DNA of 64,000 bases. Source: Nocardioides luteus. GTDB taxonomy: Bacteria > Actinomycetota > Actinomycetes > Propionibacteriales > Nocardioidaceae. Shown here piece after piece: positions 22,325 through 64,000 of the stretch. How positions within the stretch are numbered: the stretch's first letter is position 1; each line of letters starts with the position of its first letter. Made by a program: the position numbers and the translations under genes. The notes under the pieces were generated by a model, which was not told where the DNA came from, searched no databases, and worked only from the letters and a program-made list of their open reading frames with translations. The stretch is taken from positions 1,240,001-1,304,000 of the forward strand of contig NZ_JADOVJ010000001.1 in NCBI RefSeq assembly GCF_015752315.1, read 5' to 3'.

Positions 22325-22340
22325 TCGATACCGCCGAGGC

Positions 22341-22466
22341 GTCACGAACGTCGGCCGAGACGTCACCCAGGTCGGGCGAGGAGTCACTCAGGTCGGGCGA
22401 GGTGGCACTGCGACGCCAACTCGGCCGACGGCGCTGACGTCTCGGCCGACGGGGCTGACGTCTCGG
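22341..22466. repeat. 21-bp repeat array, direct then inverted
   Basis: Three tandem 21-bp units starting GTCAC (22341, 22362, 22383) are followed by two 21-bp units (22420-22440 and 22441-22461, 20 of 21 identical). The last two are the same motif in the opposite orientation (about 16 of 21 match after reverse complement). The whole forms a large potential stem in the gap between the regulator and the kinase genes. Confidence 0.7.
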
Positions 22467-22505
22467 CAGGCTCTTCGGGGAACCACGAGGTAACTCCCGC
22501 GTAAT

Positions 22506-44819: not shown

Positions 44820-44964
44820 GCCGCCGCCCCGATAGCCAGCCAAATCTTTTCTCGATCTGGTCCGGAGTCCAGGACCGCCGAAGGCGGCCGGCGTAGCCGG
44901 CGCCCGAAGGGCGTCCTTGACGCCGGAGCAGATCGAGAAGACCCTCAAGAACGGGTCGGCGGCC
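44820..44964 (-). repeat. Right arm of inverted repeat flanking the DUF222/HNH element
   Basis: This 145-base segment is the inverted counterpart of 43071-43211, including CCGATAGCCAGCCAAAT at its left end and GAACGGGTCGGCGGCC at its right end. Together they delimit a 1.9-kb composite element. The rest of the 683-base gene-free stretch 44614-45296 holds the two direct repeats below and the kdgD promoter. Confidence 0.75.
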
Positions 44965-45021
44965 CACGCCAGCCCTGGGGAACGGTTACGCACCCGGTGG
45001 TCTCGACAAGCTCGACCACCG
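44934..45021 (+). repeat. 88-bp direct repeat, copy A, with REP-like palindrome
   Basis: The unit starts CGAGAAGACC, passes through AACGGGTCGGCGGCC and GGGGAACGGTTACGCAC and ends in the palindromic GGTGGTCTCGACAAGC/TCGACCACC element. Copy B at 45061 is nearly identical. The first part overlaps the right inverted-repeat arm. Confidence 0.7.
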
Positions 45022-45060
45022 GGTCATCACTGGTCCGTGACACACAAAGTCGCGGCCCAT

Positions 45061-45147
45061 CGAGAAGACCCGCGAGAACGGGTCGGCGGCCACGCCAGCC
45101 CCGGGGAACGGTTACGCACGGGGTGGTCTCGACAAGCTCGACCACCG
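45061..45147 (+). repeat. 88-bp direct repeat, copy B, with REP-like palindrome
   Basis: Second copy of the unit at 44934-45021, with a few substitutions (CGCGAG for CTCAAG, one fewer base in the GGCC run) and the same GGTGGTCTCGACAAGC/TCGACCACC end. Confidence 0.7.
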
Positions 45148-55471: not shown

Positions 55472-56959
55472 ATGTCCCGAGTCCGATCCGACCGGTGCCC
55501 AGGAGTCGGCCGTCCGTGGCCGGCCGACGACGGCCTGCTGGTGCGGCTGCGCCTGATCGGCGGCTCCGTCTCGTCGGCCTCGCTGCTCTCCTTGGTCTCC
55601 GTCGCCGAGACCTACGGCGACGGCCGTGTCTACCTGACCGGCCGTGCCAACCTGCAGGTACGCGGCCTGCCCGCCGTCGACGGTGCGCTGCCCAGCGAGG
55701 TGCTCACCGCGCTGAAGGCGACCGGTCTGGTGCCGGCGCAGACCCACGAGCTCGTACGCAACGTGATGGTCTCCCCGCAGACCGGGCTCGCCGGCGGCCG
55801 GGCCGACCTGCGTGGCGTGGCCGCCTCGCTGGACCGGCTGCTGTGCGCCTCGCCCCGGCTGGCGGCGCTGCCCGGGCGGTTCCTCTTCGTGCTCGACGAC
55901 GGTCGCGGCGACCTGGTCGCGCGGGAGTGCGACCTCGGTCTGGTGGCGCTCTCGGACGCTGAGGGTCAGCTGCGGGTCGGCGACTCGTGGGGGCCGGTCG
56001 TGCCGCTCGCCGAGGCCGCGTCCCGGCTGGTCGCGCTCGCCTCGCGCTTCCTGGACGTACGCGGCGAGGGGCCGTCGGCTGCCTGGCACGTCTCCGAACT
56101 GGGCGGCCCGCTCGTCGAGCCGGTCGAGGCCGACGACCGGGTGCCGGCGCCAGCCGCTGAGCTCGGGTTCGGCGAGGTGCCCGGCGGCGAGCATGTCGCC
56201 GCCACCGACGGAGCCCTGGACCGGGCCGCCGTCGAGGCGCTGGTGGAGCGGGCGCCGGCGGTCGTGGTGACGCCGTGGCGCGGCGTACTCGTGCCGGCGC
56301 CGCAGGTGCGCCCGACCCGGCGCTACGACTACATCGACCAGGGGCCGGCGATCTACGTCGACTCCTTCGCGACCATCCGCCGCGAGGCCGACCTCTCCGC
56401 GGTGCCCGCCGACGCCGAGCGGCTCGCGGTGCGGATGATCCACGGCAGCGGACAGGTCGACCTCGCCTCCGACCTGGTCATCCACCCCGGTCTGGTGAAG
56501 GCCGCGCGTGGTGCCCTCGAGGCCGGGGCACCGATCCTGTGCGACGCGACGATGGTCGCCACCGGAGTCACCCGCAGCCGGCTGCCGCGCGACAACGAGG
56601 TGCTCTGCATGCTCGGCGACGACCGCGTCCCGGCGCTGGCCCGTGCCTGGGGCACGACCCGCACCGCGGCCGCGCTGTCGCTGTGGGAGCCCTACCTCGA
56701 GGGCGCCGTGGTCGCCATCGGCAACGCTCCGACGGCGCTCTTCCACCTGCTCGAGATGATCCTCGACGGCGGTCCGCGGCCGGCCGCGATCGTCGGCTGC
56801 CCGGTCGGCTTCATCGGTGCCGCCGAGTCCAAGGAGGCGCTCGCCTCCTTCGCCGACGACCACGGGATCGACATCCCCTACGTCACCGTCCGTGGCCGCC
56901 GTGGCGGCTCCGCGATGACCTCGTCCGCACTCAACGCACTCGCCCAGGAGCAGGAATGA
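55472..56959 (+). CDS. cobH: Truncated CobG fused to precorrin-8X methylmutase CobH
   Basis: Fusion of 495 residues. Residues 1 to about 275 match the N-terminal part of precorrin-3B synthase CobG (CPGVGRPWPADDGLLVRLRL, LTGRANLQVRG, RNVMVSPQTG, VVVTPWRGVLV). The CobG C-terminus with its four cysteines (CTGxPGC and GCERxCG in mycobacterial CobG) is absent. Right after TPWRGVLVPAP the chain enters CobH (RRYDYIDQGPAIYVDSFATIR), with catalytic-region His in RMIHGSGQVD and the GRRGGSAM end. CobH moves the C11 methyl to C12 giving hydrogenobyrinate. The CobG part is likely inactive or needs help. The start is uncertain: ATG at 55472 or GTG at 55466. Confidence 0.88.
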   Translation: MSRVRSDRCPGVGRPWPADDGLLVRLRLIGGSVSSASLLSLVSVAETYGDGRVYLTGRANLQVRGLPAVDGALPSEVLTALKATGLVPAQTHELVRNVMVSPQTGLAGGRADLRGVAASLDRLLCASPRLAALPGRFLFVLDDGRGDLVARECDLGLVALSDAEGQLRVGDSWGPVVPLAEAASRLVALASRFLDVRGEGPSAAWHVSELGGPLVEPVEADDRVPAPAAELGFGEVPGGEHVAATDGALDRAAVEALVERAPAVVVTPWRGVLVPAPQVRPTRRYDYIDQGPAIYVDSFATIRREADLSAVPADAERLAVRMIHGSGQVDLASDLVIHPGLVKAARGALEAGAPILCDATMVATGVTRSRLPRDNEVLCMLGDDRVPALARAWGTTRTAAALSLWEPYLEGAVVAIGNAPTALFHLLEMILDGGPRPAAIVGCPVGFIGAAESKEALASFADDHGIDIPYVTVRGRRGGSAMTSSALNALAQEQE

Positions 56960-58557
56960 GCAGCACTCAGCAGGCTCTGGGACGGTTCACCGTCGTCGGC
57001 ATCGGCCCGGGCGACCCCGAGCTGATCACCCTCAAGGCCGCCCGGCTGATCGGCGCGGCACCGGTGATCGCCTACCACGCCGGGGTGCGCAAGCAGTCCC
57101 ACGCCCGCCGGATCGCCTCCTCGCTGATCCCGGCCGGTGCGGTGGAGGAGGAGCTGCGCTACCCGGTCACCACCGGAACCACCTCGCACCCGGGTGGCTA
57201 CGTCGGGGCGATGGCCGAGTTCTACGAGTCCTGCGCGGTCCGGCTCTCCGCCCACCTCGACGCCGGCCGCGACGTGGTCCTGCTCGCCGAGGGCGACCCG
57301 CTCTTCTACGGCTCCTCGATGTATCTCCACGACCGGTTCAAGGAGGTCTACGAGACTTCTGTGGTTCCGGGCGTCCCGGCCTTCGCGGCCGCCACCGCCG
57401 CCGTCTCGACACCGCTGGTGCGCCAGACCGACGTCCTCACCGTGCTGCCCGGGACCCTGCCCGAGCCCGAGCTCGCCCGGCGTCTCGCCGACACCGAGGC
57501 CGCGATCATCATGAAGCTCGGCCGGACCTTCCCGGCGGTCCGCTCCGCGCTTGCCGCGGCCGGGCGGCTCGAAGGTGCCTGGTACGTCGAGCGTGCCTCG
57601 CAGCCGGAGGAGCGCTGGCTGCCGGTTGCCGATGTGGACCCGTCGTCCGTGCCGTACTTCTCGCTCATCGTCGTCCCCGGCGACTCTCAGCCCTCCGCTG
57701 GTCGAGCCGGAGTCGTGAGGGACGAACGACTCCGTGTCGAGACCAACACGGTCGACTCGAGCGCGTCAGGGGACTGTGTTGGTCTCGACACGCCTCCGCC
57801 TAGCGGCTCCGGCGGCTCGACCAGCGACGGGGAGGTGCTGGTCGTCGGGCTGGGGCCGGGGCCCGATGGGTGGCTGACGCCCGAGGTGAGCACGGCGCTC
57901 GCCGAGGTCGGCCACGTCGTCGGCTATGCGCCGTACGTCAACCGGGTGCCGCAGCGTGAGGGGCTGCGGCGGCACGCGTCGGGCAACACCGTCGAGGTCG
58001 ACCGAGCCCGGCACGCCCTGGACCTGGCGCTCGCAGGGGAGCGGGTCGCCGTGGTCTCCGGCGGCGACGCCGGCGTCTTCGGGATGGCCTCGGCCGTGTT
58101 CGAGGCGGCTTCTGACCCGGCCTATGCCGGCGTACGTGTCCGGGTGCTGCCCGGCGTCAGCGCCGTCCAGGCGGTGGCCGCGCGTGCGGGCGCTCCCGTC
58201 GGCGCCGACTTCGCGGTGATGTCGCTCTCCGACCGGCTCAAGCCGTGGTCCGTCATCGAGGAGCGGCTGCGTGCGGTCGCCGCCGCCGACCTGGTGCTGG
58301 CGATCTACAACCCAGCGTCGCGCTCGCGCACCGAGCAGATCGGCCTGGCTCGTGACGTACTCCTCGAGCAGCGCAAGCCGGACACCGTCGTCATCGTCGG
58401 GCGCGACGTGGGTCGGGCCGAGGAGTCGTTGACGGTGACCACCCTCGGTGAGCTGGACCCGGGGTCGATCGACATGAAGTGCCTGGTCATCGTGGGGGCG
58501 AGCTCGACCCGGGTGACCCCGGCGGGGCAGGTCTGGACGCCGAGGTTCGTCCAGTGA
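56956..58557 (+). CDS. cobIJ: CobI-CobJ fusion (precorrin-2 C20- and precorrin-3B C17-methyltransferases)
   Basis: Two tetrapyrrole methylases in one chain of 533 residues. CobI (about 1-245) has VVGIGPGDPELITLKAARLI and LLAEGDPLFYGSSMYL. CobJ (about 292-533) has VVGLGPGPDGWLTPEV, VVSGGDAGVFGMAS and AIYNPASRSRTEQI. Both use S-adenosylmethionine. The linker (about 246-290) is encoded by a 129-bp nested palindrome. ATG overlaps the cobGH stop (ATGA), and the stop overlaps the cobM GTG. CobI-CobJ fusions are known in actinobacteria; the palindromic linker is the oddity. Confidence 0.94.
   Translation: MSSTQQALGRFTVVGIGPGDPELITLKAARLIGAAPVIAYHAGVRKQSHARRIASSLIPAGAVEEELRYPVTTGTTSHPGGYVGAMAEFYESCAVRLSAHLDAGRDVVLLAEGDPLFYGSSMYLHDRFKEVYETSVVPGVPAFAAATAAVSTPLVRQTDVLTVLPGTLPEPELARRLADTEAAIIMKLGRTFPAVRSALAAAGRLEGAWYVERASQPEERWLPVADVDPSSVPYFSLIVVPGDSQPSAGRAGVVRDERLRVETNTVDSSASGDCVGLDTPPPSGSGGSTSDGEVLVVGLGPGPDGWLTPEVSTALAEVGHVVGYAPYVNRVPQREGLRRHASGNTVEVDRARHALDLALAGERVAVVSGGDAGVFGMASAVFEAASDPAYAGVRVRVLPGVSAVQAVAARAGAPVGADFAVMSLSDRLKPWSVIEERLRAVAAADLVLAIYNPASRSRTEQIGLARDVLLEQRKPDTVVIVGRDVGRAEESLTVTTLGELDPGSIDMKCLVIVGASSTRVTPAGQVWTPRFVQ
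57697..57825 (+). repeat. REP-like nested palindrome inside cobIJ
   Basis: Outer arms GCTGGTCGAGCCG (57697-57709) and CGGCTCGACCAGC (57813-57825) are perfect complements. Inner arms GTGTCGAGACCAACAC (57734-57749) and GTGTTGGTCTCGACAC (57776-57791) are also perfect. The total of 129 bases is exactly 43 codons and stays open. Related TCGAGACCAAC/GTCGAGC text recurs at the ends of the repeats near 45.0 kb and at the cobM end. Confidence 0.85.
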
Positions 58558-59351
58558 CCGGCCAGCAGGTGCCCGGTCGGACGGTCCACTTCGTCGGTGC
58601 CGGGCCCGGCGCGGCCGACCTGCTGACCGTGCGTGCGACGCGGTTGCTCGAGGCCGCCGACGTGGTGCTCTACCCGGGCACCTATCTGGATCCCGAGGTG
58701 CTGGCCCACTGCAGCCCCGAGGCCGAGCTGGTCGACACCCAGAAGCTCGATCTGGACCAGATCGTCGGTGCGATCGTCGCCGCTCAACGTGCCGGCAGGC
58801 AGGTCGTGCGCCTCGTCTCCGGCGACCCGTCCGTCTACTCGGCGGTCGCGGAGCAGACCCGGCGGCTCGACGTCGCCGAGGTGCCCTGGGACGTGACTCC
58901 CGGCGTGCCCGCCTACGCTGCCGCGGCCGCGCTGGTCGGCCGCGAGCTCACCGTGCCGCTGGTGGCCCAGTCGGTCGTCCTCACCCGCACCCAGGCCCGG
59001 TCGACGGCCATGCCGGAGGGGGAGTCGCTGGCTGCGTACGCCGCCACCGGGGCCACCCTGGTGCTCCACCTGGCGATCCGGCGCACCCGCGAGCTGATGG
59101 CCGAGCTGCTGCCGTACTACGGCCCTGAGTGTCCGGTCGTGGTGGTCTATCGCGCCAGCCAGCCCGACGAGCTGGTGCTGCGCGGGACGGTCGCGACGAT
59201 CGCCGACGCGGTCGAAGAGGCCGGGCTCCGCCAGGCCGCCGTGATCCTCGCCGGGCCCGCGCTGGCCCGCGACGGCGGAGAGTCGTTCCTCTACGACGCG
59301 GCTCGCCCGCGTGTCTCGACGAGCTCGACCACCGGGTCGGGAGGTTCCTGA
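58554..59351 (+). CDS. cobM: Precorrin-4 C11-methyltransferase
   Basis: Tetrapyrrole methylase of 265 residues converting precorrin-4 to precorrin-5. It has VHFVGAGPGAADLLTVRA, VVLYPGTYLDPEVL, RLVSGDPSVYSAVAEQ and the CPVVVVYRASQPDE motif. GTG overlaps the cobIJ stop. The last 14 or so residues (RVSTSSTTGSGGS) are low-complexity and encoded by a copy of the same TCTCGACGAGCTCGACCACC repeat family. Its stop overlaps bluB (TGATG). Confidence 0.95.
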   Translation: MTGQQVPGRTVHFVGAGPGAADLLTVRATRLLEAADVVLYPGTYLDPEVLAHCSPEAELVDTQKLDLDQIVGAIVAAQRAGRQVVRLVSGDPSVYSAVAEQTRRLDVAEVPWDVTPGVPAYAAAAALVGRELTVPLVAQSVVLTRTQARSTAMPEGESLAAYAATGATLVLHLAIRRTRELMAELLPYYGPECPVVVVYRASQPDELVLRGTVATIADAVEEAGLRQAAVILAGPALARDGGESFLYDAARPRVSTSSTTGSGGS

Positions 59352-60629: not shown

Positions 60630-62019
60630 CCTTTTACTAGACGATGACACTTTGTGAAGCCGGTGGACTCAACCGGTCGAAGCAACGCTGAGTTGAAGGA
60701 GCGTTGTGATGCCGACGGGGAAGCCCTTTTCACAGGAGTGTCGTTCTCGAGTCGTGGATCTGATCTGTGCGGGTATGTCGGCACGGCGGGCTGCTGATGT
60801 GGTCGGCGTGGCGAAACCGACCGCGGTGCTGTGGTGGCATCAGGCTTGCCCAGTGCCGATTCCACTTGAGCCGGGTGCGTTACGGGGTGGGCTGGGCACA
60901 GTGCTACAGAGTGACCCGAGTGTCCCCGGTACCGACCGTGCAGGCCGTCAGCGTCGTTGTTTGACCGCCCAGGATCGTGCGGTGATCGCTGCAGGACTGG
61001 CTGATCGGTGGTCGCAGGCCAAGATCGCTGCGGTGATCGGGCGGGATAGGTCGGTGGTGTGCCGCGAGGTCGCCCGCAACACCGGCCACGATGGTGTCTA
61101 TCGCGGTGAGGTGGCTCATCGGGCAGCCCACCAGCGCCGCCGGCGTCCCAAGGAGTTCAAGCTGGCCGCGAACCCACGACTGTCTCGGCTGATCGAGACC
61201 TGGATGGACCAGGGCTGGTCACCCGGGTTGATCGCGGCGGTGCTGCGCACCGATCACCCCGGTGCCGATCCGGCTGCGAGGATGGGACGGGTGAGTCACG
61301 AGACGATCTACCGGGCCCTCTATGTTCAAACCCGCGGTCAGCTCCGAGCCGATCTACATCGATGCCTCTCTACTCGGCGCAAGGCCCGCAAACCTCGTGG
61401 CCGTTCCAGCCATGACCCCAGCAAGAACGCCTATGCCGAGGCATTCAAGATCAGTCAACGACCTGCCGAGGTCGCTGACCGAGCCGTTCCGGGGCACTGG
61501 GAGGGCGACTTGATCCTCGGGAGCGGGAACGGCTCAGCGATCGGCACCTTGGTCGAACGCACCACCCGGTTCGTGATCCTGCTCCACCTGCCCGGTCGCC
61601 ACGACGCCGAGACCGTTGCTGAAGCGATGATCCGCGAGATGGGCACGCTGCCCGATCACCTACGACGCTCGATCACCTGGGACCGTGGCCTTGAACTTGC
61701 CCGCTACCAGCACATCCAGGTCGAGCTCGGCACCACCATCTACTTCGCCGATCCACACTCCCCCTGGCAGCGAGGATCCAACGAGAACACCAACCGGCTC
61801 CTCAGACACTGGTTCGAGAAGAGCAGCGACCTCTCACGCCACACTCCCCAAGACCTCCAACGCATCGCCGACACCCTCAACCAACGCCCACGCCCTACCC
61901 TTGACCTACAGACGCCGGCCCAACGGCTGGCCCAGCTGCTGAACCCAGCAGCCTGACCAACCGTTGCTTCGACCGGTTGAGTCCACCGCCTTCACAAAGT
62001 GTCATCGTCTAGTAAAAGG
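60630..62019 (+). mobile_element. IS30-family insertion sequence
   Basis: Element of 1390 bp with 58-bp terminal inverted repeats (60630-60687 and 61962-62019), identical but for one position and starting CCTTTTACTAGACGATGAC. It carries one transposase gene. No target-site duplication is clear (flanks CGA and GGC). The right end overlaps the last 28 bases of cobL on the minus strand. The intact ends and open transposase suggest a recent, perhaps active, copy. Confidence 0.92.
60709..61956 (+). CDS. IS30-family transposase
   Basis: Transposase of 415 residues. N-terminal helix-turn-helix regions (CAGMSARRAADVVGVAKPT and the IS30-type LTAQDRAVIAAGLADRWSQAKIAAVIGRD) are followed by an RNase H-like domain with D267 (GHWEGDLI), D325 (ITWDRG) and E359 (RGSNENTN), the IS30 DDE triad. 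ATG at 60709 has AAGGAG; a GTG three bases upstream is less well spaced. Full length, no frameshift. Confidence 0.95.
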   Translation: MPTGKPFSQECRSRVVDLICAGMSARRAADVVGVAKPTAVLWWHQACPVPIPLEPGALRGGLGTVLQSDPSVPGTDRAGRQRRCLTAQDRAVIAAGLADRWSQAKIAAVIGRDRSVVCREVARNTGHDGVYRGEVAHRAAHQRRRRPKEFKLAANPRLSRLIETWMDQGWSPGLIAAVLRTDHPGADPAARMGRVSHETIYRALYVQTRGQLRADLHRCLSTRRKARKPRGRSSHDPSKNAYAEAFKISQRPAEVADRAVPGHWEGDLILGSGNGSAIGTLVERTTRFVILLHLPGRHDAETVAEAMIREMGTLPDHLRRSITWDRGLELARYQHIQVELGTTIYFADPHSPWQRGSNENTNRLLRHWFEKSSDLSRHTPQDLQRIADTLNQRPRPTLDLQTPAQRLAQLLNPAA

Positions 62020-63435: not shown

Positions 63436-64000
63436 ATGCCGGTGCACTATCCATTTTCTGCCGTCCTCGGCTGTCAGGCGGACGACCTCGACGACATGGG
63501 CCTCGCGCTCGTGCTCACCACGATCTCCCCGGAGATCGGCGGGGTCCTGGTCCGCGGCGAGAAGGGGACCGCGAAGTCGACGGCCGTACGCGGCCTGGCG
63601 GCCGTGCTGCCCTCGATCTCGGTCTATGCGGGGGACCGGTTCTCGATCGACCCCGCCGACCCGTCCGCGGAGTCGCCGGACGGGCCGTTCGGGTCCGCTG
63701 CCGTCGTGGAGAGCCGGCCGGTGCGGCTGGTCGAGCTCCCGGTCGGTGCGACCGAGGACCGGGTCGTGGGCTCGCTCCATCTGGAGAGCGCGCTGTCGCG
63801 CGGTGCGGTCGAGTTCGAGCCGGGGCTGCTCGCCCGGGCCCACCGCGGACTGCTCTACGTCGACGAGGTCAACCTGCTCCACGACCACCTGGTCGACCTG
63901 CTCCTGGACGCGGCCGCGATGGGCCGGGTCTCGGTCGAGCGCGACGGGGTCTCGGTCGAGCACGCCGCCCGGTTCGTGCTGATCGGCACCATGAACCCCG
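63436..64000 (+). CDS. Mg-chelatase-type AAA ATPase subunit for cobalt insertion (partial)
   Basis: The first 188 codons are present and the gene continues past the window end. [25 protein letters not shown] is the usual start of ChlI/BchI-like subunits. Walker A is GEKGTAKST (about residues 40-48) and Walker [11 protein letters not shown] (about 144-153). Together with the cobalamin riboswitch, this points to the ATPase that partners CobN in cobaltochelatase, often a ChlI-ChlD fusion in actinobacteria. ATG follows GGGAG. Confidence 0.9.

Follow-up and report, generated by a model that had tools for sequence, protein, structure and literature searches.

An in-frame insert in the CobI-CobJ linker of Nocardioides luteus is one copy of a palindromic element dispersed in a Nocardioides clade

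Palindromic repeats that are read as parts of proteins have already been described in Rickettsia (PMC10969869) and in several REP-rich bacteria (PMC3733652). As presented in the consulted text of the former source, Rickettsia palindromic elements are palindromes of about 150 bp which lie in-frame in unrelated metabolic genes and encode a conserved peptide. REP sequences of the GTAG and CGTC superfamilies, as presented in the latter, are hairpin units of 20-40 bp found in inverted pairs (BIMEs) near the 3' ends of convergent or unidirectional open reading frames (ORFs); in two species, most of the convergent ones lie within 20 bp of both ORFs, and some REPs are located within ORFs, including UvrD/REP helicase and recBCD genes (PMC3733652). 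The words Actinobacteria and Nocardioides are absent from the main text of that paper, and in the consulted text of a Nocardioides genome paper the word "palindromic" is used for CRISPR only (PMC5526307). No description of the palindrome family presented here was found for Nocardioides in the literature that we searched. Its closest known counterparts are Rickettsia palindromic elements and REP dimers (BIMEs) located within genes, and we conclude that it works like these. The family presented here is a high-GC actinobacterial one, which has many hosts and an almost constant frame, occupies orthologous sites in several species, and shows exchange of hairpins.

The window analysed is a stretch of 64,000 nucleotides of N. 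luteus (contig NZ_JADOVJ010000001.1, positions 1,240,001 to 1,304,000 of the forward strand). Within the CobIJ protein that it encodes, CobI corresponds to residues 6-243 and CobJ to residues 291-531 according to domain models (with 6-243 and 295-531 as the best stretches in the top models). The first-pass annotation of this DNA had reported a 129-bp palindrome making up 43 stop-free codons between the two enzymes and, indeed, positions 57697-57825 are codon-aligned and form cobIJ codons 248-290, with zero stops. The outer and inner arms, announced as perfect over 13 and 16 bp, are both perfect, but their true lengths are 14 bp (57696-57709 / 57813-57826, within a 19-nt pair at 89%) and 17 bp (inside a 21-nt pair, 95% complementary, at 57733-57753 / 57772-57792). 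Comparison with other copies set the ends of the element, and RNA folding added two hairpins which were absent from that annotation (Table 1). The predicted fold of this copy thus comprises three hairpins on one outer stem. In line with the strong mRNA hairpin that had been anticipated, the fold of 57685-57837 reached a predicted -100.3 kcal/mol (z = -7.65), and 0 of 200 shuffles were as good. The cobIJ palindrome is confirmed as real, and as one copy of a dispersed element of about 130 bp. A chance palindrome was ruled out by the genomic copies, by the RNA-fold shuffles and by the inverted-repeat controls in cobIJ linkers reported below.

Table 1. Window coordinates of cobIJ and of the parts of the palindromic element copy that it contains.
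Feature	Position	Strand	Basis or remark
cobIJ, fused precorrin-2 C20-methyltransferase (CobI) and precorrin-3B C17-methyltransferase (CobJ)	56956..58557	+	one ORF, 533 aa
Complete palindromic element, 131 bp	57696..57826	+	alignment of 30 genomic copies, element boundaries
Outer stem, left arm (CGCTGGTCGAGCC end motif)	57696..57708	+	
Half-unit 1 hairpin, type 1, variant stem GGAGTC/GACTCC	57709..57733	+	RNA fold, hairpin typing
Central stem, left arm, VETNTV in frame 0	57734..57753	+	
Central stem, right arm, VGLDT in frame of left arm	57772..57791	+	
Half-unit 2 hairpin, type 4, reads PPPSGSG	57792..57813	+	RNA fold, hairpin typing
Outer stem, right arm (end motif inverted)	57814..57826	+	

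A search of the 5.82-Mb genome of the same strain with a 161-base query gave 96 matching pieces, which by our reading correspond to at least 40 distinct element places; 40 of 122 first-look candidates were scored. Alignment of 30 copies indicated that the element consists of two inverted half-units around a short variable spacer, each half-unit presenting in order the end motif GGTCGAGCC, a hairpin of one among few types, and then GTGTCGAGACCAAC. The ends (CGCTGGTCGAGCC ... GGCTCGACCAGCG) and the central stem were constant across these 30 copies, while the two hairpin positions were filled from a small set. Some of the ten other places hold partial elements. Whole elements mostly measure 105-131 bp, which corresponds to half-units of about 50-65 nt. 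Among 196 genomes of the genus, the exact core was present in eight, namely the genome studied (28 matches) and seven relatives (2 to 45 each), and a reversed-pattern control gave 0 matches in the same 196 genomes. The half-unit pattern was found in 19 of the 196, with 6 to 178 matches in each of these eight genomes and at most 12 in each of the other eleven. In a CobIJ tree calculated without the linker, the eight core-bearing genomes and N. luteus JCM 3358 formed one branch (support 100/100), within which the branching order was for the most part not resolved. The element is present in the CobIJ linker of named relatives including N. turkmenicus, N. luteus JCM 3358 and N. albus, and absent from that of N. 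luteus BAFB. The cobIJ insert is one copy of this palindromic element, which is dispersed in a clade of Nocardioides.

Convergent genes were the preferred surroundings of intergenic copies. The family had been said to occur outside genes, and this agrees with the 40 places of the genome studied, where genes were assigned with a home-made codon-score gene caller: 30 are intergenic (21 between convergent genes, 9 between genes on the same strand and 0 between divergent genes), 6 lie inside genes and 4 at gene ends. In the seven relatives, 64 places were present among the listed exact-core matches and 60 were retained, three at contig ends and one in G015 being left out. Of these 60, 13 fell within genes and 2 at gene ends; the other 45 were intergenic, with 29 in convergent, 15 in same-strand and 0 in divergent position, and 1 for which one neighbour was unseen. 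Taken together, the 74 intergenic copies with both neighbours called comprised 50 in convergent, 24 in same-strand and 0 in divergent position, vs 8 convergent and 9 divergent among the 54 gene adjacencies of the window (Fisher p = 1.6e-9 and 2.8e-4, respectively). In the 20-kb cob loci of relatives, 133 of 1007 adjacencies were convergent and 140 of 1007 divergent. Both stop codons were located at most 20 bases from the element in 19 of the 21 convergent copies of the genome studied. In intergenic position, copies follow stop codons closely and are mostly flanked by convergent genes.

This placement is one of the features shared with REP/BIME sequences, together with the organisation as an inverted dimer of palindromic units (the two half-units) and the occurrence of some copies in ORFs, including a UvrD-type gene. 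By contrast, the half-units are longer than the 20-40 bp given for REPs (PMC3733652), and the two half hairpins of the element are almost never alike. Its ends read CGCT in 46 of 64 cases, CGTC in 9 and GTAG in 0, with a search pattern that favoured ends beginning with CG. Moreover, the Y1 transposase/RAYT family PF01797 had 0 matches in the genome studied, whereas the control search found it in 5 of 14 known genomes, and mobilisation by a RAYT was discarded on this ground. Because unit size, end tag and, in the genome studied, RAYT content all depart from the GTAG and CGTC REP families, we did not file the element in them.

Copies read inside proteins were found in 15 different host genes (identified by Pfam), in the genome studied and in relatives, all of them reading through the element in one frame. 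The eight hosts of the genome studied are CobIJ, a CobB-CobC-like fusion, a ChlI/ChlD-like protein, a Fer2/FAD/FCD/short-chain-dehydrogenase fusion, a UvrD/PD-(D/E)XK protein, an Lhr-type helicase, a CobQ-like protein (C-terminus) and a pyridine-nucleotide oxidoreductase (N-terminus), the coding status of the last copy hinging on the start codon chosen. Four of these genes (CobIJ, ChlI/ChlD-like, CobB-CobC-like and CobQ-like) cluster within about 20 kb. The relatives added CoxG-like, radical-SAM/CofH, hexapeptide, phosphomethylpyrimidine kinase, DUF4194, ABC-transporter and GlcNAc-epimerase proteins. An intact-core copy lies within the coding sequence in 11 of the 15 hosts; the core is rearranged or lengthened in two others (L076 and L078) and the copy is C-terminal in two (L235 and L236). 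The left arm was read as V-E-T-N, in frame 0, in 19 of 19 intact-core coding copies, of which 15 were also open in frame 1 and 8 in frame 2. Both arms shared one frame in 18 of these 19 vs 28 of 73 other copies (p = 1.2e-5); as these 19 are drawn from 11 host genes, and copies are related to one another, p-values overstate independence. The exception was the CobIJ copy of G113, in which the second arm is in another frame; G110 and G039 look like G113 in this respect. Both arms were likewise in frame 0 in L076 and L078. Of the four gene-end copies of the genome studied, two depart from this frame: L083, a half copy over which some 18 codons are read in a different frame, and L022, where the gene enters the element out of frame and terminates within it. 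In the genes that contain a copy in their coding sequence, it sits in a domain linker, a terminus or a loop, and is read in one constant frame. Such in-frame palindromes in unrelated protein genes, here 15 hosts, recall Rickettsia palindromic elements; the differences are the high-GC Nocardioides host and the exchange of hairpins at orthologous sites.

As for the CobI-CobJ junction, the first-pass annotation had proposed a palindrome that either fused two genes or lodged in a linker. The latter holds, the element being lodged in-frame in the linker, and the former does not. Indeed, a single stop-free match spans both CobI and CobJ in about 96 of 130 matching genus genomes (hand count), and named loci of Mycobacterium, Streptomyces, Gordonia and Aeromicrobium likewise encode a fused CobIJ, in which 40-46 residues separate the anchors vs 69 here (linker measurable in 47 of 59 named cobIJ loci, our own value being trimmed to their anchors). 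Relatives of the same clade differ in this respect, as the element is kept in the CobIJ linker of G015 and G001, and is absent from that of G011 and G052, which contains a different short repeat. Because CobIJ is fused without the element in congeners and in other genera, the fusion is older than the element, and the palindrome was ruled out as its cause. The creation of the CobI-CobJ fusion by the palindrome from adjacent genes would find some echo in neighbouring cob genes (CobB-CobC-like), which are fused or split within the genus and for which some fused linkers contain repeats, but in view of the element-free fusions its probability is negligible.

The linker itself varied in both length and content. 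Between common anchors it measured 38 to 124 residues in 41 genus loci, with no peptide common to all; these 41 remained from 43 cobIJ loci, 13 of them (L061-L073) chosen for a long or split match, after setting aside two which had no anchor motif. A perfect inverted repeat of at least 12 bp was present in 15 of the 41 linkers, vs 0 of 164 windows of equal length taken from these loci and 3 of 820 linkers after shuffling; among the 30 loci picked by listed id, this was the case for 10 (hand count). No perfect inverted repeat of 10 bp was found in 20 of the 41. When searched in their own genomes, the linkers of G091 and G063 gave 55 and 31 matching pieces, both being many-copy, while that of G080 gave 5, with no high-copy family. 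Of the three other congeners tested, two therefore have linkers that are genomic repeats as well, and the view that every cobIJ linker is a high-copy repeat was ruled out by G080. A linker conserved at the protein level, with no related DNA copies elsewhere, had been named as the opposite case; no such peptide was seen in the 41 loci, and copies do exist elsewhere. Structure prediction from a shallow alignment (23 rows) gave pLDDT below 50 at residues 244-289, i.e., the insert, in a model with a pTM of 0.43 and other low stretches such as 140-161. A disordered insert would fit this low pLDDT, which is not proof of it, and the insert is probably a tolerated, flexible linker.

From a mechanistic point of view, we thus favour with good confidence an in-frame passenger, that is, a dispersed inverted pair of hairpins, selfish or neutral, which is tolerated in the linker of an older fusion. 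The copy would have spread as a selfish or neutral repeat, would be tolerated between CobI and CobJ because this linker accepts changes in length, and would be kept open only by selection to preserve the reading frame. Alternatively, the insert may be a selected functional linker, repeats being recruited since flexible length helps CobI and CobJ as well as other fused enzymes. The recurrence of repeats of different kinds at the CobIJ linker, the retention of the insert in G015 and G001, and the resemblance of five host genes to multidomain fusions are in line with such a role, but the range of lengths without any shared peptide, the element-free linkers of G011 and G052 and the low model confidence over the insert make it improbable. 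Extra linker length in a B12 enzyme need not imply function. The very stable predicted fold could also suggest that the mRNA hairpin regulates expression, by slowing ribosomes or lowering synthesis of the CobJ part. However, CobI and CobJ form one chain, in which a shift in ratio would need abortive or internal initiation; a simple consensus scan of 57600-57950 found no promoter-like or terminator-like site, no Rfam match exceeded the threshold, and the element is also present in unrelated genes and behind stop codons. Such tuning of CobJ synthesis is unlikely, and we give it very little credit. It should be noted that the RNA family RF02928 (Actinomyces-1) appeared below threshold over the cobIJ copy (20.7 bits vs a cutoff of 39.1, E 0.61). 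It was not listed for two intergenic copies searched as stretches of the same size, which gave other families, sub-threshold only, and the match was taken as chance; a whole-locus Rfam search of 20 of the 30 intergenic loci was too coarse to list a match as weak as this one.

How such a passenger copy changes with time was approached at orthologous sites. In the UvrD-like gene, the element occupies one site in 8 of 8 clade genomes, and the match to this protein breaks in two at that site in 7 of 7 outsider genomes. The second hairpin there reads DS(F/L)VPHES in six clade genomes and PPPSGSG in G015 and G113. The CobB-CobC-like gene contains a shortened remnant of the element in G015 and another linker in G113. 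At two intergenic sites compared across seven relatives, the slot holds the element, a reduced form or a different palindrome, and none of the relatives had a cleanly empty slot at which target duplications could be recognised. Hairpin types, assigned in all but 8 of 92 core-bearing copies, were unlike in the two halves of 83 of 84 typed copies, vs a mean of 22.5 like pairs, and a minimum of 9, in 10,000 shuffles of these types. Among 15 distinct type-1 hairpins, three varying stem positions keep pairing in 15, 13 and 15, through double changes; this covariation shows for the type-1 hairpin taken alone, and amounts to 1 of 39 pairs in 16 copies with mixed hairpin types. Hairpin length per half-unit left a remainder of 1 modulo 3 in 36 of 37 halves from coding copies and in 122 of the 138 others, and hairpins could therefore mostly be swapped without a frameshift.

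Taken together, these data suggest an exchange of hairpins from copy to copy, in which long and perfect palindromes are lost or avoided. Such palindromes are unstable, which is plausibly why two like hairpins are almost never combined. Under the passenger reading, hairpins, or even the whole palindrome family, may later be replaced at a given slot. The process would probably be recombination between dispersed palindromes, or template switching from one to another, and not fresh transposition. As regards movement, and compatibly with that reading, the element could be a MITE moved in trans by an insertion-sequence transposase. Its short size, terminal inverted repeats, copy number and mostly intergenic location speak for this, but no target duplication was seen at two sites, which were plainly empty in none of the seven relatives, the Y1 transposase PF01797, the only transposase family sought, had no match in the genome studied, and hairpin exchange at fixed sites would be unexpected; we regard a MITE as rather unlikely. 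More broadly, and tentatively, Nocardioides might keep persistent palindrome slots, in convergent gaps and protein linkers, where unrelated families replace each other and hairpins swap as frame-compatible cassettes. We hold this to be possible, though doubtful; if true, the exchange of palindromes at the DNA level would shape protein linkers as much as point mutation does. The family makes it directly possible to test whether coding repeats of this sort are carried along neutrally or provide new linkers, and how a palindrome is copied from one site to another.

Other repeats were observed in and around the window. Positions 22333-22467 carry a different palindromic repeat, and related-looking sequence (by eye) is present in G039 and G113 in the orthologous convergent slot that holds the GGTCGAG element in the genome studied. 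A 44-nt inverted repeat lies at 44849-45143, with two nearby copies of GGTCGAGCTTGTCGAGACC. The CobM-like protein (58553-59351) bears an extra repeat-derived tail (PRVSTSSTTGSGGS) near 59312-59330, the protein of named clade relatives terminating instead in AARVRA or a like sequence, and an ORF at 60706-61956, near the cob genes, is presumably an IS30-type transposase. The AAA-VWA linker of the ChlI/ChlD-like protein (63436-63999, L076) contains rearranged element pieces in several clade species. In G003, the CobIJ and CobB-CobC-like linkers (L065 and L154) share the repeat peptide VVEEGEERARLET. Finally, for the CobB-CobC-like junction (L143-L172), 15 of 26 genomes have the fused form, 10 have a stop that splits it and 1 was unreadable, and some of the fused linkers hold repeats; any role of palindromes in gene fusion is better studied at this junction than in CobIJ.
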